Origin: Entophlyctis helioformis
Lineage: Eukaryota; Chytridiomycota; Chytridiomycetes; Chytridiales; Chytriomycetaceae
Assembly: GCA_025526915.1 (NCBI GenBank)
Contig: JAHLKH010000130.1
Location: 1 to 64,000, forward strand
Reading direction: 5' to 3'
DNA length: 64,000 nucleotides
A model generated the notes under the pieces. The model saw only the letters and a program-made list of their open reading frames with translations. It made no database searches and was not told where the DNA came from. The translations under genes were made by a program, and so were the position numbers. Shown here piece after piece: positions 33,126-49,850 of this stretch; the first letter of the stretch is position 1; each line of letters starts with the position of its first letter.

Positions 33126-35203
33126 TCAAGCGACCCGCTCCCACACTTGCACATAGGTTTCTGCAAGCAGGATCATCTGCGCAACAATCTCTTCCACAAA
33201 CAAGTCCTGGATCTGGAACCACTGGTCCTTTCCCTTTGATAACAGGTGCACTTTGTATACTCCGTTACCCGGACCTGGACGGCCTTCGTGGCAGATGTTG
33301 GCGACCAGGTCATAGCGAGCACTCTCTCCTGTCTCCGTGTCTTGAAGCCGGCCGATACCCGCGCAGCAGGCCACCCGAGAAGCCCAGTGGTCCAGCGCTG
33401 TCAGCATTGATTCGCGTCCACCTCACATACACACATTGACGTGTAGCAAACTCACACTCGCTCATGTCCAGTCCCTTGATGGGAAAGTTTACAATGGTAG
33501 GGTTCTTCTCCGTCGACAGCCAGTTGTTCTTGCTAAAGCGTTTGATGCAAAAGATCAGGTAGGGGGGCAGCTTGCTGATCTTGAACCGCTTAATCGTGGA
33601 TCCTGAATGCTGGAGCCATTGCAGTCGTAGAGCTGTATGATCAGCAAGCATAACACGGACAGTCGGCATTACCCAAGCTGATATGCAGTAGCACGACTCT
33701 GTTGACTCACGTGGGGCGTCTTTCCATCGTATTTCGCGAGCAAGGTGACGAGGGGGACTTGCGGAATGATATTCTTGTCAGCTTCGTCTGTGAAAAGCGG
33801 AGCCGGCGGTGGTTCAAGTGCCAGAAACCAGAATGGCGTCACTGTTGTCGTGATCGTCGTCTGAGCATCGTGAGTGCCAGCGAGCCTTGATTCGGCAACT
33901 TGAGGTCCAGCAGGTTAGAATCGACAGCAAAGCCGCGCACCAATGGGTTCTCAACAACTCACCCACTTCCTCTTGGTCCAGTGCATCGTTTGTGCCTGTC
34001 TCACGCCTCAGGACGGTTTCTGTTTCAACCCGAAGCTCGCCTTGAAAAGCACTTTGAAAGATGGCTAGGTTGCAAACGCAGGCATGTCAGCTACGAGACC
34101 CATTAACATACGACAGCATGCATCGCCTTACTCTTCCGCTTCTCCTTTTCTTGATCAGGCCGCGATGCAGCGTGTTCACAAACCACGACAGAAACTCTGA
34201 CACGTCACATTGCTCTCCAAGACGGAACCGTTTCTGACTGGCATTCGCGATTTCCTGGTGGGGTTGCAGGCATTTGCAATGAGTCGCAGATGTACAAGCC
34301 AGGGCCGTGCCGCTCCACGACATAAAGTCACCTGAATCAGCTCGTGTGGGCTAACCTGCCCCTTGAACGATCTCCGATTCCACATCTTGCGGACAAGCAT
34401 TCCAAATCGGTCAACTTGCACAAGAGTATGGAACTATAATGTCAGCCATGGCAACCTTGCCTCCGGCTCGCCACAAACCAGTGCCCATCAACTGCTCACC
34501 AAGTTCAGATCCAGTTGCGCTAGTTTCCAGCAGGAAATGATCGCGAACCATCTTTACATGAGACAAGGCTTGCACGACCACGTTGATGTAGTCGTTTGCC
34601 TTGATGTTGTTCAGACCAACGAATCCTGCATGCGCCAAGATCAGCACTTTCACACAACCAGCCCATCGACCAAGGCATGCCAAGCCAAGCGCGCCAACTC
34701 ACCAGGCAAGTACATCTTATTGTTGAGATCGTATGATGCTGCCATGCTGCTATCCAGACCGTCGACCTGGTCTTGTCAAAGGTTGGCTTGATGACGTACT
34801 TGATGTCGCCAAGCGAAGGGTCGTCGACTTCGTAGCCATCTGGCAGAATGTAGACTCCAAGAGTCTCGAGGTTGATAAACACATGGTGGTCTTCGTTCAT
34901 GCTGTGGAAGTAGGCATGCGACTGCTTGCCACGGCCTTGGTAGTACTTGCCGCACACAAGACATGCGTACACGTTGATGTTGCTCAGCGAGACGGAGCAC
35001 AGCTTCTCAAAGTCAAAGTCCAGGCGAGCTCGGTTGATGGTCTCGAGGTAGAGGCCACGCAGGGCCATGGCTGCTGGTTGCTGCGTGCGCTGACGCTTGG
35101 CTCGAGGAAAGGCTTGCTCCTCTTCTTGCTGTGCTTCATTGCTGCTGTCGTCACCCGCACCAGCACTGTGCTCACGCTGGCCGTCTGGTGTGATCTCCAC
35201 CAT
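33126..35203 (-). CDS. USP39/Sad1, catalytically inactive ubiquitin-hydrolase-like tri-snRNP protein
   Basis: Component of the U4/U6.U5 tri-snRNP needed for spliceosome activation. Start ATG 35203 (MVEITPDGQREHS), acidic and basic leader (PRAKRQRTQQP), then LYLETINRARLDFDFEKLCS and the UBP zinc finger VYACLVCGKYYQGRGKQSHA with the FHSMNEDHHVFINL histidines. The peptidase-like domain begins GFVGLNNIKANDYINVVVQA: the sequence ANDY stands where active enzymes have GNTCY, so the catalytic cysteine is lost as in the whole family. Later blocks are LPPYLIFCIKRFSKNNW, TIVNFPIKGLDM and YDLVANICHEGRPGPGNG, ending VYKVHLLSKGKDQWFQIQD and a terminal helix (QMILLAETYVQVWERVA). Several introns. Confidence 0.92.
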
Positions 35204-35362
35204 TGAGTTGGAGCGAGGGGGACGTAATTGATTTCGTTCCCAAAGAGCACCGTGCGCCGGCACCTGATTGGTCGGCTGGTTTGCCTCGAATTTTGTTCAA
35301 TTTGGCGTCCAATTTCCAATCGTTTTGAATCCAAATTTCATATTCTTGTCCGGAATTCCCAG

Positions 35363-37109
35363 TCACTTTGAGCAGCCTACAGTCGATGCCTTCTCAAGTC
35401 GTGGTCGCTTTGGCTCTTGCTTCTGGACTGCTGAGCCTGTCCCAGGGGCAGCAGTTGGTTGCATGTTGGTAGTGTCACCAAGGACTGTCCTGCGACTGCC
35501 TGTTGTGGCTGTTGGCCTTCTGCGTCCAGTCGGCGCACTTGTGTGTGCTGCTGGGGCGGCCTGCTGCAATGTCCGAACGGGCGACGTCACAGGCGACACA
35601 GACGCACTGGCATCTGCTGCTGCTCTCTTCCGCTTGCTTGGTGCTCTTTGGCGGCTGGCTGTTGGCGTGGCAGCTACAGCAACGGATGGCTGTCCATGCT
35701 CGTCCGCAAGGTCCTTGTCGTCGTCGAGATTGTCAAGGCACACAGTGTCAACAGAGTCGCAACTGTTGACAGCCATCGCACAACAGGCAGACGAGCTCAC
35801 CAACGAGGTCATGGATGGATCACTCGGCGCATCGTTGAGCTGCTGCGTATCGTCGAGCTGCTGTAAGGCATCGCGCTTGGCTTGGTCTGACTTTGAGAAC
35901 TGTCGAGGCGATACACACAGAATGCCTGCAGCAATTCTGCTCACTCATGCCAACCTCTGTCCTGGCTGCCTTTGTGTAGACAGCATACTCTTTCCGGACG
36001 GGATCGCTGATGGGGCCCCATACAAAGATGTTGTATGATCTGTCGTAGGATGGGTATGTGCTGTTTGTGCAGTCAGTCTGCTGTGCCATGAGTGCATACA
36101 CATCCTATGAGAATATCCTACCGGCATTTGAATGATGGCTCAACAAGGAATCCGCGCTGCTTGACGTCCATCGACCTGATCTTGAAGATGAGTTGCATCT
36201 GTCGTGCGGCTGACATGAACTCTTCCAGGTCTGACTTGTCATTCCGGCCCTTTCCAGTCCGTCGTAAACTGTCTCGCCACGCGTTAAACAGCTGTGTCCC
36301 ATGCAATGGTTAGTGCTGATTGTCAAGGAGAGTGTGTTGCCTGCCCGTTTGTAAGCTTACTTGCTCCACGGGATAGGACGTAAGCGCGCGACCATACAGG
36401 TGTGTAAAGGTCGCTCCTTCTGGGACTGCAAACTCTGCTTTTGGATCAAGTGTCGCAAGCATGCCCAGATTCTGGTTGTTGGCTGCTGCAAAGACGCTCG
36501 TCTCGGCAAACTGTCGTGTGAGGTTTAGAAGTCAGTGAGTGATGGACTGCTTATTGTGTGTTGTGGGTGATCAGACTTACCTTGTGATGATCGCAGTACT
36601 TTGCATAGTGCTCAAGGAGTTGGAGGACGCTGCTCTTGAACGCCGAAGTGATTCGGATTCCTTGCAGTGCATCACGATGCCGGGATTGCTGGAATCTTGG
36701 AGGCACAGGAGCATGACGAGAAGCTTGTCAATGTCTTTGAGAAGCACCACCAATACTTCACGGCCGCCAAGGTTTCGCCTTGATGGCAAAAGCAGGGAAG
36801 TCATCTTGGCATGAAGCTTGTCAGAACCAAGGGGAGGCGAGACACTTGGATGCATATGACGCCTTTACGCGGGCCGTCTGTGAGCTTGACGAGTGGCAGC
36901 AGCGAGTGTATTTGGTTCTTCTTGTTCACCAGAGTCATGCTTTCAAATGAACCGTCGTTGCAGTGGAAGCACAAGCCGTAGTCTAGAACCTTTCCTGTTG
37001 GGTCGATGGCCTGCGGGTCTGCTTGACTGGGAGCTGGCTCTGTGGTGGCTGCTGCGTCCATGTCGTCCTGCTGGTGCACAGCGGCATGTGGTGGCTGTTG
37101 CTCGTCCAT
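35363..37109 (-). CDS. Unrecognised protein with a disordered basic C-terminus
   Basis: I do not recognise this family. From ATG 37109 (MDEQQPPHAAVHQQDD) the first exon reads KVLDYGLCFHCNDGSFESM and HSLLPLVKLTDGPRKGVICI, ending at a GTGTCT donor. Next: LGGREVLVVLLKDIDKLLVM, SAFKSSVLQLLEHYAKYCDH, FAETSVFAAANNQNLGMLAT, EFAVPEGATFTHLYGRALTS, LFNAWRDSLRRTGKGRND, QLIFKIRSMDVKQRGFLVEP, NIFVWGPISDPVRKEYAVYT. The last third is disordered and basic (APSKRKRAAADAS, GRRRPTATTGSRR, KRPRLEKASTVGCSK), suggesting a nuclear protein. The frame shifts by one near 36660 at a GG pair; a missing base would repair it. It lies 160 bases upstream of USP39, same strand. Confidence 0.6.
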
Positions 37110-37919
37110 TCCAACTCTGTCGCCAGAGCGCCACTGCCACTGGTGGCGGGATCGCTGTGATTGGTCAAGCCCAGATCTGGTCGCGGCACTTGCCCAAATG
37201 CGCGCCATCAACAGCGAGCAGAACACGGGCAACACACAGTGGCAGCTGACGGGCGGATGGTTCCGACAGGCACGATGGACATCGGGAAGCGGGCGAACAA
37301 AGGCACTGAGCGAGCGGAAAATTGGGCCAAGCTGCCACGTGGCAGGTGGATCTGATGCGATAATATTGGATATGGGCAGCTCTGGGTTTCTCCCATCCCG
37401 CAAACCTCGTTGCACTTTGCACTACCCACGGCCACTGACAGGTGTGTCTGTGTGTCTGTGTGCCTGGTGTGCCTGTTGGTGTGCGTGTGTGTGTGGTGCG
37501 TGGTGCGTGTGGGTGTGTGCGTGGGCGTGTGTGTGCGTGTTGGAGAGGGACGTGCGCATGTAGGCGCAACTGAGCGGCAGACGGCAGGCTGCACCGATGC
37601 ACTGCTGGAAGTAGAAGCGCTTGCTGGTACTGACCGTCACGCTGTTCTATGCCCCTGCCTGCCACGCTCCTCACAGCCCAAGACCTCATCAGCCCACGAC
37701 TGCCGCCTGCCCAAGACAACCAGCCCACGACTACCGTCTGCCCAAGACCTGTCATCAGCCCCCTGCCACAGTACTGCCCACTCCTTGCCCACGCTCTGTT
37801 TCGCCGCTGCCGCCCATTCTGTTTTGCCGCTGCCACGTGCTTTCTTGCCGGTGTTTTCTTGCAGACACACTCTTCCTGCCACATGCTGACGCCCCCACCA
37901 CTCGCCTCGACACAGCATC
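37110..37919. repeat. Intergenic region with TG-rich repeat and degenerate 30-bp tandem
   Basis: No gene seen. 37440-37555 is a long TG/GTGCG-rich run. 37676-37765 holds about three imperfect copies of a unit of about 30 bases around CCCAAGAC...CAGCCCACGACT. 37790-37860 is C/T-rich with two GCCGCTGCC phrases. This is the presumed 5' flank of the nuclease-fusion gene and could contain its promoter or the left end of an element; no inverted terminal repeat matching the 3' flank was found by eye. Confidence 0.6.
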
Positions 37920-40900
37920 ATGGGAATCGCAGGATTCGGCCAGGCATCCAAGAAGGGGTATTGCAGCGTCGCAATACCCCCCGACGACAAGGTGTCCGAT
38001 GCATTGGACGTGGCATTTGGAGCCACCCAGCAGCACCAGCCTCATCATCAACAGCACCAGCCTCATCAACAGCACCAGCCTCATCAGCCAGCCGCACCCA
38101 GCATCATCATCATCCTCGTTGATGTGTTGAGCGTATTCTACCCGCAGCTCGCGGCAGCAGCCGCACTTCAGCCGCCATCGTCCATTGGTGAGTGGCTAGC
38201 AATCGTCGCACCCATCCTTGAGGCATTCCTCAAGTCAGTCGGCGACGGCCGGATCATCATCTTCCACGTCGACGGCCAGCACGGCGACTCTGGCATCAAG
38301 CAGCAGGCGCATACCAGCCGCGCCTTGAGCATCTTGCGCGCAGCGGCCAAGGTCCAGCAGTTCTTTGCCAAACGTGCAACCAATCAAGGGTTTAGACAGC
38401 TAGAAATGCAAGTTCCCTGCTTTGTGTTGCATGTGGCGATCCTAACTAACAGTCAATGTTGCAGAAAAGAGCTGCAAGCCCTCCTCCATTCATTCACGTT
38501 GACACGCGACCATAAGGGCCACATTGCCGAGGCTCTCAAGATGCTGCTTGGACCCACTTCCCCACATAGGGTCTGTTGGTGTGCCCACGAGGCCGACGTT
38601 TGCATTGCACGCGACGCTGCCAAGTATGCAAGCCAGCCAAGGTACAGATCGCCATGATATCTGTCTGTTGTGATTGATGGCTGACAATCTGCATCTCACA
38701 ACAGCAGCATTCCCATGGCGGTGATCGCCAACGACTCGGACGTCATTTTCCACTGCGCCGGACGTTGTCCTGTGATCACGACACGCATGTACCGCGGCCG
38801 CGCCACCAATATCCACACATACAATCACCAGGGCATTGCGACCATTGCAGCTGCCCTGGGATTGCGCAGTTTCCCAGGCGCTGCCAACTGGTCGCCGCCA
38901 TGTCAAAAAACGACTATCACGATTGTTACGGGCGAGGTATGTGCGATTCCTGGCTTCATGCTCTGTGTTGTCATCGATCCTGTGGTGTTGACTAACTCGG
39001 TTGCCACTCACATCATCTTGCAGGCATTGCTGCCGCCGTCAAGTTCGTTAACAAGCAGTTTGACGCCGCGGCAAAGAAGCGCGGCTTCAACAACCCGGCC
39101 GACTTCTGTGCGCTCCTTCACGATCGTATGGAGGCCATGGATTTCGCGTACACTGTCGGATTCGCGTACTACAACGACCTGCTGAAGGTTGGAGGCGTGG
39201 CTCTTGCCAAAACTTTCCTGAACGCCTTTGCCGTTTTCATCCTTCACGAGGAATCCGGGGCTTTGCCAACACGGTCGTCGCCCAGACTGGCAACAGCAGT
39301 CAATCCACCGCGCCAGTGCCGAGGCAAGTCTTTTGCTTGACCAGTCGATGACGCTGCATTGTGGATGCATTTGCATGCATAGCACCATACTGACCATCCA
39401 TTGCTACTGGCAATGACAGCAGCCAGGCTGCCAACACAACCACCACGCCCCAAGAACGGTATGTATGCATGTGATCTCTGTGGGTTCTCACATTACTGAC
39501 TTATGCTCCTATTTTGATGTCATTGTTGGATTGTGATGCAGATGCCAGCTGCATGACGGCTGCGTTCTTGTTCACCCCAAGTCGCAGAAACACAACCCCA
39601 ACTCGATCGCCGTACATCTGACTCTGGAGGACGTCGAACGGCTTGGCATCGACATTCTCAACACGAGGGAGATGGATGCAACTTTGGACAAGATCAAGAA
39701 CTGCCCAATCGCTCTTGACTGTGTCCTCAAGCACGCGGCAGATTGCCTCACTGGCATGCCGGACAGTGTTGCTGCCCGTGATTTCTGGCCGAGATCAGCA
39801 GGTCGGCGAGCTCGAAACTGTTACGGATTGTCCATGAGCAGTCTCAAGCAGCAACAGTACGCGCGACGCTCGAGCCAGTCGATCAGGCTATTTGGGATGG
39901 ACATGTAAGTTGCTGCATGTCTCTGATGCATGTGCACTCCTCGCCTGGACGTGTCAAACTCAATCCACTGCTCATTGTACAGGGCGCTGCTGAAAGGATG
40001 AAGAAGCAGTTGGGCAAGATTGTCAATCGTCCATGCAAACCACACCGCCACTTATCGACACCGCGTACGTACTGCTTGCATTGGGATCATGCCAACTCGT
40101 CTACTGACAGCACCTTCTTTGCTGAACGTTGCCATTACAGAAACAGAAGCGCAGAAGGACTCACAGCAAGCCACGCAGCAAGTCAAGCATCAAGGCAAGG
40201 CCATCACCCGAGGCGGTTCCCCATTGACCGCTGCCGACATCTGCGACAAGGCCGCGGACAGGCTGAACGAACTGAGAAGCATCACGGATGGCCAACCAGT
40301 GACACGCCGCGAGCAGCTGAAAGCAGCCATTGACTTGCTAGAGTCCATCATCAAGCAAGCCACGGTGCGTCTTCATCTTCACTGCCTGTGTGTGCATGCC
40401 ATGACTTGGCACGATCGCTCATTGTTCCACTTGACAGGAGGCTCAACTGCCCAAGCTGCCCGAGCAAGAACCACCATCCGCCGACAGCCAGGCTGGTCAA
40501 GCAGACTGCAAGATCTTGTATCTCAATCAAGATGCAGACATCCGGACGACGGTCAGTTCTGGTGTTCCATTGGTGCTTGCGTATGCATTGTGTGCACTCG
40601 GAATGCATTGCTGATCGTGCATCCAACCTCTACAGGCGCGACGCCAAATCACCAAGCAACAGGAGGTGGCGAACAAGCAGAAACGCGAAAAGCAAGCTGC
40701 CAAGGCTGTGGCCGACAAGGCCATCGACAGGAACAAGGAGGGTGCACGCCGGCAAGACCGCCAGAAGAAACCAGTGGGCCCGAATAAGCCGTGAGTGTTG
40801 TACACTGTGCCATGTGCCTTGGGCATGCTTGCTGACATGTGTGGGGTTTGCAGACGCAAAGCTGGAGCACGAGTGGCACAACGTCGGGTTGACAGAAAGG

Positions 40901-43900
40901 GGGGACGCCTCATGTCAGGGGCACCCATGACGCTCTCTGCGGCCACTGCCAGCGACAATCAACAGCCTGCTTCAGTCACCAGCGGCGATGATCAACAGCC
41001 AGCCGCGGATGCACCCGACCATCCCACCAATGACTCACCTGATCCACCTGCTGCAGACGCACCCGACCATCGTAGCATGAGAGTGGAGCTGGAGGTAAGA
41101 TTTAGGACCACCATTCTGCCTGCCTGCATGCATGTATGACTTTGCATTTACTGACATGTTGGCTGGCATGGTGCTCAGGACATGCTGTCCAGCGGCCCGC
41201 AGAGTGCCCCGATCTTTGGCGTTCATGCCATCAGGTCATCGGCGGATTGGACGCGTCCTCTGCTCTCCCAGGACATTGTCACAAGGGTGCACTCGTTTAC
41301 CGTCGGTGCGCGACATGCTGGCCTCGTCATCATCGGCGCCATCCTCGAGGAGCTGCTTGAGCTTGACCAAGACGCACCCCTACCGCCCAAGTACCATATC
41401 TACGGCTGGCTCGATGGCCAGACAACGCGGTACTGTTTCCTGGATGTCGACTTCAAGCAACTTGACGACCTCGGCGACAAGGACGTCATCAAGGGCCTCG
41501 GTGGTGTAACAAAGGCAGAGCTCCTGTCTGGCCGATTCACCCTTCGCGAGGGCATCACTGCGCGGGCCATGTACGGACGGAGTCGATACAACCACACGAG
41601 CAGGGAACGTCGCTTTGGGCACCCAGTGAAACTGGCGAAGGGTACAACACTCGAGTGCTGTACATTCGAGTCGCCTGAGTCGCCCGAGCATGACACCGCC
41701 AAGCAGCCCGACGATCAACCAGTTGCACCCCAGCCAGCTGTGCCCGATGATCACGGCAAGCCTGAGCAGCCAGCAGCAGCAGCACCACCACCACCACCAG
41801 CACTGGCAGTGCCAACACCGGATGACATCCTCTCAATCATCACGACGGACGAAACGTCTATGGCATCTCTCTTCCGGCACGTGTCGTATGTGTTGACTGG
41901 AAGCGGGATGGAGCAGCCGCAGTCCACCATGCTCCAGCTCAATGCTTGGCTCGTGACCATTGCCCAGCTCATGATCCATCGTTGCTGGACGCCAAGCACG
42001 TTGCAGGCCAACGCGACCAAGAGAGCCAACACGACCAAGAACAACGCGCGGCAGAAGGGCACGACCAAGAACGACGCACGGAAGGCCGAGTGGAAGGCAG
42101 GCGCGCGGCATCCAACCAGATGGTGGTCGAGCTCACACCCAGACAATGCACAATGGGCTGATGCACAGCAGGCAGCTGTGCCCTATCGGCTTGTCAACAC
42201 CCTGCTGACTGCAAGCGGCGACATATTCAGCAACCTGGCGAGGGAGGTGAGCGCCACACTCGCCAAGCACTTCATCGAGAACCGGTCAAAGCTGGCATTG
42301 GTCGCAGCCCAGAGAGCAATGCCTGCTGCGACTTCTGAGCAGATTGCAGCGTGGGTCGATGCCATATTTGCGACCGTTGAGACCACCAAGGTTGCCAGGC
42401 GTGCCGCCACTCAGGACGCCGCTCAGGACGCTGCTCAGGACGCTGCTCAGGACGCCCCATTGTCGGCCACTCAGGATGCCACCATGGACGCCGCTCAGGA
42501 CGCCACTCAGGATGTCGCTCCTCCCGCCCCAAGTCTCAAGCGGACCGCGTCACAGCTTCTGCTGGCCACTGATGGCAGTGCATCCAAGAGGCAAAAGGAC
42601 AAGACTACTGCCCCTGTCGCCACAGATGCCATGCAAGACACACCACCAGCCGCACAGGACGGGGACGCCATCGAGATCCCACAAGAGCTGAATCCAATTC
42701 AGGCGATTGTGCGCAGCATGTCAACATCGGACATTGGACGCTTCTACCAACTCCTCAAGCTCGCTGGCACTTGGGTGATGAAGCTCTGCCCCCAGCCCTC
42801 CAGCCGCGACCCCTTTGTCCTCATCACCGAGGCCACCCTCTTTTGGGCGGTGGTGGGGACAAAGAAGGATCGCGTACCCACCAAGGACAATGCTGTCCTC
42901 CAGGCATTGCAAGAGGAGCTCCTGGCCGCAGTTGGTAAGTTGCATGTGTCTATGCCACGTCAATGCTATTTGATGCTAACACTGCACTTTTATCCAAAAC
43001 TGCAAAGATGACACGTTGACTCTCGAGTCGACCAACGACGACATCCGAACGGCCTTCAGCAATAGCAAGGAGCTGGCCATCCTCGACATCCTCCTGCCTG
43101 GCCTCCGCCCCAAGAATCGACACCGTCCAACGCAGGCCGAGGGTGACGAGGCCGCGGTTGATTCTCAGCCTCTGGTGGCTTCAAAGCAAGTGATCAGACA
43201 AGGCAGCATCATGACGGACGGATACACGGTCTATCAGCTGGCACTGGACTGCCGCACAAACCGTCCAGAGTCGCCTCGCAGTATGTGTCATGCTTGGATG
43301 CTTTGGTGCACACATTGATTCTGACATCTGCCTTGATCTGCAGGTCCCAACGCGGCGTCTCCAGCCCAGCAGCCCAGTCTTGCTGATGCTGCTGTTGGCA
43401 TCCTTAATGCCTTGAATGGTCAATTTATCGAGCCTGACCACATGGACGTCACATGTGAGTTGCTGTGCCAATCCAGACGCACACTTGTTGACCACACCAA
43501 CTGACATGCCATCCACAGCTGCCGATCCAGCCAACCCATCAGCCACCAAGCCATACACGCCCAATCCTGTAAGTCACTTGCATGCTAACCTCACGCATTG
43601 GTGCACATGCATTGCACATTCCTCACTCATGCCATGGCATGGCAGGCTCAGCGCAACTTTAATGCATCCCAGTGGCTGCCCGATGTTGCTGATGCCAACA
43701 ATCTGTTCATTAACCAAGGCTACCAGACTGTTCGCGTTGTCAGCTTTGATTGGGGCGAGCGGTACCTGTTTGGCGCGTCCAGCATGCTTGTCAATGTCAA
43801 GGAGGAGACATACACGATGGAGTCCAACTACGTGCTCTCCTCTGGCATGGCACGAGCCGAGCACAGCCTTCAGCGGTGGTATGCATGCAATGACTCTGCC

Positions 43901-44810
43901 ACACACACTCTTGACCAGATCAACTCACAGTGCCTGCCTCTTGTGCCAGGCTCAACAATCAATATGCCAAGGCAACCGACATCCAGGCGGTCATTGCATT
44001 CAAGACAGCAAAGCATGCCAATCCAGACATCAAGCCTGGCGAGAGAGCCTTTTGGGATCTGCGCTGCCATGCGTACTGCACACCATTCCTGAATGCACGG
44101 GTACGTTTTCTCTGGTTCTGGATGCCCATTGACACGGCCGCCATGCTGCTTGATCGCCTGCTGATCGTGCTGCATGGCATGGCATGGCATTCCACAGAAG
44201 GTCAAGGCCAAGCGGTTCACCATGCGCAGCAACAGCACGTCTGATCGCGGACAGGCTCTTGAGGGCATCATGAAGCTGGCAGGATCGACCACTAAACATC
44301 GCGCATCTCGTGCATCTCAGGGCCTCCCTGTCAGCAACCCTGAGAAGGACATTCCCGTTGTGTGGGCATTTGGCATCGACTTTACAGGCCAAGGTGGCCG
44401 GCATGCTGTGTTTGAGAAGTTTCTCATCAGGCATCTGCGGTCGTCTGGATATGCCTATGTGCGTCTGATGCCATGCCATCCATCTATCCATCTGTGCACC
44501 AATTGACACGATCATGCACACACACACACAGATCTACCGCTGCAACGAGAACCTCACCAGCCAGATGTGCCCGCAGTGCAAGCAGCGGATCCCAGACAAG
44601 AACCGCACCAACCTGCGACGCTACGAGTGCACAGACTGCGATACCGTCTACCACCGAGACGTGCTTGGAGCCACCAACATCGGGATGGTCGCACTGTGGC
44701 ATCTGCTCTATGGACAACGGCCGCTCTATTTGACGCACACGCCAGTCGATCAGCCTGTCGACAGCATCGCAGCAGTATCCTCCACAGACACAGCACGTCA
44801 CTCCATGTGA
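37920..44810 (+). CDS. Fusion-like gene: XPG/FEN1-type PIN nuclease plus Fanzor/TnpB-type RuvC nuclease
   Basis: About 1,900 residues over some 17 exons. The N-terminal part has XPG-family order: MGIAGFG start, IIIILVDVLSVFY, IIFHVDGQHGDSG, CAHEADVCIARDAA (acidic pair), MAVIANDSDVIFHC (D-S-D), AAALGL, LVAAMSKNDYHDCYG, then GIAAAVKFV. A linker with Lys/Arg-rich helix (REKQAAKAVADKAIDRNKEG) follows. The C-terminal part has SIMTDGYTVYQLALD, RuvC-I (VVSFDWGERYLFGAS), VVWAFGIDFTGQGGRHAVFE, RuvC-II glutamate (YRCNENLTSQMCPQC), zinc ribbon (CPQC ... ECTDC) and RuvC-III (YHRDVLGATNIG). This D-E-D plus four-cysteine layout defines Fanzor, the eukaryotic relative of TnpB, an RNA-guided DNA endonuclease family. 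Reading phase carries across most junctions, including CC|A at 40790-40860, favouring one transcript. Single-base frame breaks at about 38866, 39257 and 39787 could be assembly errors or decay. Two abutting genes is the alternative. Confidence 0.75.
38029..38092 (+). repeat. In-frame tandem repeat encoding His-Gln-Pro units
   Basis: Three to four copies of an 18-base-like unit (CAGCACCAGCCTCATCA) near the N-terminus of the nuclease fusion gene. It encodes QHQPHHQ-type residues between the MGIAGFG start and the first PIN strand, so the PIN fold is interrupted by a flexible loop. Confidence 0.85.
42412..42515 (+). repeat. In-frame tandem repeat encoding Ala/Thr-Gln-Asp-Ala units
   Basis: Eight or so GCTCAGGACGCC-type units in the middle of the nuclease fusion gene encode AQDAAQDA. 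It lies between the linker and the TDGY segment of the Fanzor-like half. A basic stretch (SLKRTAS, GSASKRQKDKT), resembling a nuclear localisation signal, follows. Confidence 0.85.
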
Positions 44811-45110
44811 CTTGCACAACCACCAACACTTTGAATCGGGGCACCTCCCGATCGACCTAACGGGTCACTTATCACATCATTATTTCAATAATAATGAAAG
44901 GTAAGCCGCTCATGCATGTGCCTCGCCTGGCTGTCATTGCATGCTCGTTGCTGACTCGAACCTTCCATCGTGTGATGTGCTGGCTTGCATTCGTCGCCTC
45001 TCGGGTCGAATCCAATTCCAAAACGCTTGGCAATTGTTTGAATGTCGGGCCATTTGCCGGCGGTTTGCCGGCATTCCCTCGCCCTATTGCCCACCCCTCC
45101 TCCACGAAAA
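44811..45110. other. 3' flank of the nuclease fusion gene
   Basis: 300 bases between the nuclease stop and the DHX35 stop. An AT-rich hairpin-capable stretch (about 44866-44896, around CATTATTTCAATAATAATG) comes first, then the duplicated segment listed separately. No protein is supported. In Fanzor and TnpB loci the guide RNA is transcribed from exactly this position, so it is the place to look for one. Confidence 0.4.
44939..45100 (+). repeat. Repeat A, copy 1 (3' of the nuclease fusion gene)
   Basis: Near-identical to 49599-49723 in the same orientation. Shared blocks: GCATGCTCGTTGCTGACTCG, AACCTTCCATCGTGTGATG, TCCAATTCCAAAACGCTTGG and TGTCGGGCCATTTGCCGG. This copy has two short extra pieces: about 10 bases near 44981 and about 20 bases near 45070. 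It ends about 10 bases past the DHX35 stop. It could be a dispersed repeat, a transposon end, or a structured RNA. Confidence 0.85.
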
Positions 45111-48346: not shown

Positions 48347-48473
48347 GGCCAGCGAATCATGCCATGGCCCAACAGTCAGCAGCCAGCATGCACCACCAGT
48401 CGTCAATGCACATTGGCAACCATGCCACCCACAGGTTTGCGACTGTTGAGGTCGATCTGATAAGACGTTGCTG
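48347..48473 (+). repeat. 127-bp inverted repeat, left copy (upstream of DHX35)
   Basis: Reverse complement of 49724-49850, with about 8 mismatches in 127 by my count. The 56 bases nearest the DHX35 ATG are identical to those nearest the HEATR5 ATG. It ends five bases from the DHX35 start codon, so it must contain the core promoter or 5' leader of that gene. Confidence 0.92.
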
Positions 48474-49556: not shown

Positions 49557-49598
49557 ACTGTTACCCTTGGATGGCAGGATCTGATCTGCTGGTTGTCG

Positions 49599-49723
49599 CA
49601 TGCTCGTTGCTGACTCGAACCTTCCATCGTGTGATGTGCGTCGCCTCTCGCGTCAAATCCAATTCCAAAACGCTTGGTAATTGTTTGAATGTCGGGCCAT
49701 TTGCCGGCGGTTTGCCCACCCCT
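49599..49723 (+). repeat. Repeat A, copy 2 (3' of the orphan gene)
   Basis: Same orientation as copy 1 at 44939-45100, lacking the two short extra pieces there. It begins 42 bases after the orphan gene's stop and ends exactly where the right inverted repeat begins. Confidence 0.85.
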
Positions 49724-49850
49724 CAGCAACGACTGATCAGATCGATCCCAACAGTCGCAAACCTGTGGGTGGCGTGGTTGCGGATGTGCATTGCCGACTG
49801 GTGGTGCATGCTGGCTGCTGACTGTTGGGCCATGGCATGATTCGCTGGCC
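49724..49850 (-). repeat. 127-bp inverted repeat, right copy (upstream of HEATR5/Laa1)
   Basis: Inverted partner of 48347-48473. Its outer end lies 12 bases before the HEATR5 start codon at 49863. Confidence 0.92.

Follow-up and report, generated by a model that had tools for sequence, protein, structure and literature searches.

Does the chytrid fungus Entophlyctis helioformis carry a gene that joins an XPG/FEN1-like nuclease and a Fanzor-like RuvC nuclease in one protein chain? The question is raised by a stretch of 64,000 nucleotides, which we call the window (bases 1-64000 of our contig C130, JAHLKH010000130.1, in a genome assembly of 29.57 Mb and 482 contigs), where a preliminary description made from the letters alone had read such a fusion. 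The answer that we favour, somewhat above even chances, is a DNA transposon family of about 10 kb whose main gene encodes one two-nuclease fusion protein of about 1826 residues, with a putative break-and-copy mechanism. From its N-terminus the protein would have an XPG/FEN1-type PIN nuclease, a conserved middle of about 600 residues and a TnpB/Fanzor-like RuvC nuclease with a four-cysteine (C4) zinc ribbon. The one-chain architecture taken by itself we consider likely. The features of the window copy are collected in Table 1.

Table 1. Features of the element in the window (positions are those of the window).
Feature	Coordinates	Strand	Remarks
Predicted fusion gene	37920..44810	+	19 exons, 18 introns; three frame breaks in window copy
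Exons 1-4, XPG/FEN1-like PIN nuclease region	37920..39323	+	seven conserved acids
Intron 4	39324..39419	+	GC donor in window copy
Exons 5-11, linker	39420..41094	+	fast evolving
Exon 12, 575-residue middle region	41179..42934	+	open over long stretches in many copies
Exon 16, RuvC-I-like strand with DWG aspartate D1554	43646..43878	+	
Exon 19, alternative glutamate E1740, C4 zinc ribbon, RD aspartate D1777	44532..44810	+	PF07282
Conserved 3' non-coding block	44811..45099	+	hairpins 44835-44852, 44854-44866
Transposon copy, ~9.9 kb	about 35215..45099	.	sharp ends, short imperfect terminal inverted repeat
Second, divergent multi-exon coding region	35366..37108	-	limits by eye

We placed the 18 introns by six-frame reading and by alignment with five other copies of the gene. 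In the window copy 16 introns have GT donors, introns 1 and 4 have GC donors, and all acceptors are AG. These two introns (38408-38464 and 39324-39419) keep their GC donors within one group of copies, whereas other copies have GT. The evidence that carries the gene model comes from another copy, L062 (contig C50, 75200-83600), to which all residue numbers refer. Spliced under the 18-intron model, L062 gives 1826 codons with no stop and no frame break. A purpose-written spliced aligner that was given the L062 protein recovered these 18 introns both from L062 and from the window copy, which for L062 is a consistency check and not an independent proof. In this spliced alignment the window copy is 92% identical to the L062 protein and has no in-frame stop, but its frame is broken near 38881, 39258 and 39784, with exon 3 to exon 6 out of phase. 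The breaks could stem from sequencing error. The unbroken coding phase that had been read through the splice junctions is therefore found in L062 and not in the window copy. The fusion itself holds for the family, on the L062 frame and on the recurring order and spacing of its parts, while the copy from which it was first described is frame-broken.

The gene belongs to a repeat family with over a hundred copies in E. helioformis. Its first exon gave at least 153 matches, or at least 103 distinct places after second pieces were left out. We found the XPG exon carrying NDSD..KNDY at no fewer than 147 places (of 154 candidates 150 were scored, and three second pieces were dropped), the ribbon exon at no fewer than 179 (the union of two lists, each with at least 150 matches) and the middle exon, exon 12, at no fewer than 132 (merged from the best 150 of 178 candidates). 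At least 88 of the 147 XPG-exon places are followed by a same-strand ribbon no more than 15 kb downstream, in most cases at 6.0-6.5 kb. Among the matches listed, a ribbon lies upstream of the XPG exon at no place and on the opposite strand at 5 (about 6.7 expected by chance). Counted from exon 12, the XPG exon is upstream at 106 or more of the 132 places, with 94 of the 106 at 2.29-2.74 kb, and a ribbon is downstream at 99 or more. The order XPG, middle, ribbon is complete at 75 or more of the exon-12 places and reversed at none of the matches listed. Several of the 26 exon-12 places that lack an XPG exon are near contig ends.

For the C-terminal half, the profile check bore out the zinc ribbon: the Pfam model PF07282 (TNB) matches it with an E-value of 2.2e-11 (44.2 bits against a cutoff of 26.3), and was again above cutoff in another search (E 9.5e-11). 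The half also fits the Fanzor motif D-X(125,275)-[TS][TS]XX-C4-X(5,50)-RD of Bao and Jurka (2013, PMC3627910). The alternative-glutamate Fanzor pattern, which PMC10711439 gives as E-x6-CxxC-x(12,18)-CxxC-x(4,8)-D, is present in 37 of the 38 C-terminal rows that we aligned (33 distinct copies). By residue, E1740 is kept in 37 of the 38 rows, and the four cysteines and D1777 in every one. D1554 is kept in 32; the other six have no similar sequence there. A comparison with PDB sequences gave no significant match (best E 0.8 with a profile and 0.31 with a single sequence). On balance we would expect the RuvC half to be guided by RNA.

The metal-binding acids of XPG/FEN1 nucleases come in the order D, D, E-x-D/E, D-x-D, D, and the N-terminal half has its acids in this order. 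The seven in L062 are D61, D111, E198, D200, D225, D227 and D285, with spacings of 50, 87, 2, 25, 2 and 58, similar to the 52, 72, 2, 19, 2 and 52 of human FEN1. They are kept, in sequence, in 35, 34, 31, 34, 34, 34 and 34 of 35 rows (29 distinct copies), and when four subfamilies are aligned none of the seven varies. As in the XPG/FEN1 family, a G-rich stretch follows the last acid. Differences from that family are the fusion to a RuvC nuclease, the length of the half (about 350-400 residues) and an N-terminal MGI or MGV that we saw in some copies only. The motifs from which the preliminary description recognised both nucleases are all present, in the order and at the positions that it gave. 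The acid spacing goes beyond chance: when L062 residues 1-420 were shuffled 20000 times its pattern arose 26 times, and none of the 42 open reading frames of at least 230 residues in the window has it.

Purifying selection acts on the XPG core. The ratio of nonsynonymous to synonymous substitution (dN/dS) is 0.07-0.22 in four close pairs of copies and 0.19 in two distant pairs, where the synonymous divergence (dS) is near saturation. For exon 12 the ratio is 0.17-0.2 in close pairs, and 0.34 and 0.51 in two distant ones; some copies have frame breaks in this exon. Exon 12 also has a 12-nt in-frame tandem repeat (QDAA-like, 42382-42531), and alignment with three close copies opens gaps of 48, 12 and 24 bases in the surrounding block.

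Structure prediction of the N-terminal half points the same way at medium confidence. A first model of the XPG-like region was of low confidence (predicted local distance difference test score, pLDDT, 50.0), probably because intron residues had been included. The intron-free model, made from the public protein P0006, has a pLDDT of 65.1 and a predicted template modelling score (pTM) of 0.54. Its strands are at residues 5-10, 53-58, 140-142 and 169-173 and its acids at 10, 60, 147/149 and 175/177, which is at or just after strand ends, and a helical region follows D235. FEN1-type PIN folds have a similar strand order, with acids at strand ends. We judged the fit to a PIN-type fold with a helical arch and an H3TH-like region by eye, on a model of pTM 0.54. 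We consider it likely that this half would act as a metal-dependent nuclease.

The element around the gene can be delimited from its copies. The start falls at window positions 35204-35217 in 27 of 45 genomic matches, and similarity breaks off abruptly at 45053 or 45099. At the 5' terminus the sequence is GAGGGGG or GAGGGGCAGGCAATTC; the 3' terminus ends in CCCACCCCTC, the reverse complement of which is GAGGGGTGGGCAATAGGG. A search with exact 14-mers found no terminal inverted repeat at the element ends, and the shorter, imperfect one was seen by eye. C162 and other copies have one end without a clear boundary. The minus-strand coding region, which takes up the 5' part of the element, could encode its mobility protein; by eye it is frame-broken in the window. 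At its 5' end the element abuts the start of a host-like minus-strand frame (34520-35205) that resembles what we take to be SAD1/USP39, and the insertion lies directly upstream of the likely start of this frame. On the other side, at 49589-49716, the 3' end of the element occurs once more (87% identity). This second copy adjoins 127-nt inverted repeats (48347-48473 and 49724-49850, 94% identical) and is perhaps part of another or nested element.

The non-coding block at the 3' end of the element is conserved. In the 25-base bin at 44825 it has an identity of 0.93 to the window (36 rows, including duplicates and three non-homologous rows), and its two hairpins are invariant except for the last pair of the second. 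Folding gave a whole-block z of -3.8 against 50 column shuffles (27 of the 36 rows, with the three non-homologous and six duplicates left out). No Rfam family matched at the gathering threshold within window positions 30000-52000. Its conservation and folding make the block a candidate guide-RNA scaffold.

The 3' ends also have a history of their own. Between L062 and L065, dS declines from 2.49 in the XPG core (near saturation) through 1.05 for exon 12 to 0.18 for the RuvC part. From 43890 to 45099 the window is close to L065, L097, L098 and L099, although the 5' parts of these copies differ by half. Deeply different copies have thus had 3' ends in common recently, which is strong mosaic structure or gene conversion. 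Such homogenised ends fit repeated break-driven copying.

Several points weigh against this reading, and we take them here together with the explanations that they favour. The guide RNA, the target cutting and the flap cutting are activities that we infer. The 3' hairpins show no covariation because they are invariant. Of eight copies inspected by eye for a target duplication (the window, both in C13, and C1, C89, C38, C121 and C125), just one has an exact duplication (10 bp, C38) and one a partial one (about 7 bp, C121); six have none. We recognised no transposase in the element by a Pfam search with three pieces of the second coding region, none of which had a match.

Instead of being a eukaryotic Fanzor, the C-terminal half might have been acquired separately, as a TnpB of the kind that has the alternative glutamate and D-hydrophobic-G. 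The RuvC-I motif of Fanzors is nearly always DPG according to PMC10711439, and L062 and the 32 rows that keep the RuvC-I place have DWG. There are also 185 residues between the RuvC-I aspartate and the glutamate, outside the 120-160 in the pattern of that paper. The TnpBs that it describes have the D-hydrophobic-G motif and a glutamate six residues before the zinc ribbon, as here; they are described among TnpBs, whereas the E. helioformis gene is intron-rich and eukaryotic. A protein search with the C-terminal half matched E. helioformis proteins only (among the best approximately 8000 candidates), and the motif of Bao and Jurka fits. We think a separate TnpB origin unlikely, though it deserves weight. 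The Fanzor assignment that had been made for this half keeps the alternative glutamate and departs from the usual DPG.

The order of the parts alone also fits two neighbouring genes in one transposon, namely an XPG protein of about 350-400 residues that ends in intron 4 and a separate RuvC/TNB gene, with the order coming from the common element. The chain is predicted from genomic sequence, reading through intron 4 terminates it, and the linker (residues 527-799) evolves fast, with a dN/dS of 0.6-0.85. Two public models look like the shorter protein: P0006 (349 residues) runs into intron 4 and stops there, and P0005 (397 residues) stops at about exon 5. At 31 loci, the donor of intron 4 is GCAAG in 22, GT at the same place in 5, an uncertain GT in 1 and unresolved in 3. 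However, the five loci with GT belong to another subfamily, L062 is open through all 19 exons, and P0005 does not stop at exon 4 but continues into sequence resembling exon 5. In four diverged copies (L065, L097, L098 and L099) the protein read from exons 6-11 is still 25-52% identical to that of L062, so these exons appear to be coding and would require a start upstream. The public models agree with our exons at the junctions of introns 1-3, and the GC donors possibly explain their shortness if gene callers ignored such donors. One chain is favoured because the L062 frame is open, the intron-4 site is conserved and exons 6-11 look coding, and we regard two separate genes as improbable.

The fusion might also be ancestral, with the present copies decaying and making no working protein. 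Only one of nine full-length copies, L062, is open. The other eight are frame-broken, among them the window copy and seven with one to seven breaks each, of which four also have one or two stops. The RuvC part has a dN/dS of 0.46-0.9, which is near relaxed and a weaker constraint than in the XPG core, and six of the 38 C-terminal rows lack a recognisable RuvC-I part. A few of the frame breaks in the seven copies may be alignment or assembly effects, including assembly indels. Against a dead family stand the fully open copy, the low ratios in the XPG core and exon 12 between close pairs, and the kept active-site residues. We give a dead family little credence.

For the N-terminal half, single-sequence and profile searches found no Pfam XPG model above its curated cutoff and nothing above cutoff in NCBIfam or PDB. 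The preliminary description had held that a failure to match PIN/XPG profiles would speak against the fusion, and this failure has partly occurred: the best match was to PF12813 (XPG_I_2), seen in 6 of 32 fragment rows with an E of 0.026 at best, and in 1 of 4 longer rows with an E of 0.25. PF00867 matches at three other places in the genome and not in the family itself. An hhalign comparison with three host XPG-gene fragments gave no meaningful alignment and is uninformative, the templates being single sequences without depth. An alignment built from individual exon pieces misplaced the rows of exons 1 and 4, judging by their identities, and was set aside. The half might instead have a PIN-like fold but no flap-nuclease activity, and might for example bind RNA or DNA or serve in dimerisation within the RNA-guided nuclease. 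This would suit the missing profile matches and the medium model confidence (pLDDT and pTM as above), but we find it very improbable, since loss of activity would free the acids and all seven are kept in FEN1 order under purifying selection.

We searched for the same pairing elsewhere. Three protein searches, each scoring the approximately 8000 candidates with the most words in common, gave none, four and two relatives; these six are all from E. helioformis, with none from outside it. The first of these, made for long fused proteins, did not find even the host's own, and from this the annotation seems to split such genes. A viral scan with the XPG half confirmed 0 of 18 pattern matches. A literature search, with subscription journals and preprints largely outside its coverage, found no publication that joins Fanzor and XPG. 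In the searches made, XPG and RuvC were paired in one chain nowhere else.

Spizellomyces, the host of SpuFz1, is a chytrid. SpuFz1 and other Fanzors, as presented in PMC10432273, resemble the E. helioformis protein in their fungal host and in having a RuvC nuclease with a zinc ribbon, and the Fanzors described in PMC10711439 have the alternative glutamate pattern in common with it. The E. helioformis protein differs in its DWG and in the extra XPG half. The Fanzor1 transposons covered by Bao and Jurka (PMC3627910) likewise have a TnpB-like C-terminal half within a eukaryotic transposon. The comparison extends to the MuDR-type fungal ones among them, which carry terminal inverted repeats and target duplications of 9 bp. 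Mucor MCi-2 also has different 5' parts with near-identical 3' parts, and CMe-1A of C. merolae, with about 150 copies, is comparable to the E. helioformis family. The difference is that in E. helioformis an XPG-like nuclease precedes in the same chain and the gene has 18 introns; SPu-1-1p is given there as 633 residues, against 1826.

How the two nucleases of the proposed fusion might work together is a tentative matter, and we put the joint mechanism below even chances. The structured 3' non-coding end would be transcribed as a guide RNA, with which the RuvC half would cleave sites near the element that are homologous or vacated. The XPG half would then trim 5' flaps or branched ends that arise from the cut or from repair synthesis. 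This trimming may steer repair to copying the element or its 3' end, as homing-like retention or gene conversion. The weak, conserved GC donor after the XPG part could allow a separate XPG protein as well. A bolder version, which we hold to be doubtful, is a two-nuclease homing machine in which an alternative-glutamate DWG RuvC and a flap endonuclease would act on a break or R-loop, the GC donor would release the flap nuclease, and the whole would drive the gene conversion of 3' ends among the more than 100 copies.

To our knowledge, the TnpB and Fanzor nucleases described so far make a single kind of cut, and the repair falls to the host. Because the family has more than a hundred copies within a small genome, the two-nuclease idea is testable in E. 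helioformis. If it is true, a flap-trimming partner within the same chain would be a new means of influencing what becomes of an RNA-guided break. It would be relevant to the way in which such transposons maintain their copies, and it would offer a natural template for genome-editing fusions.

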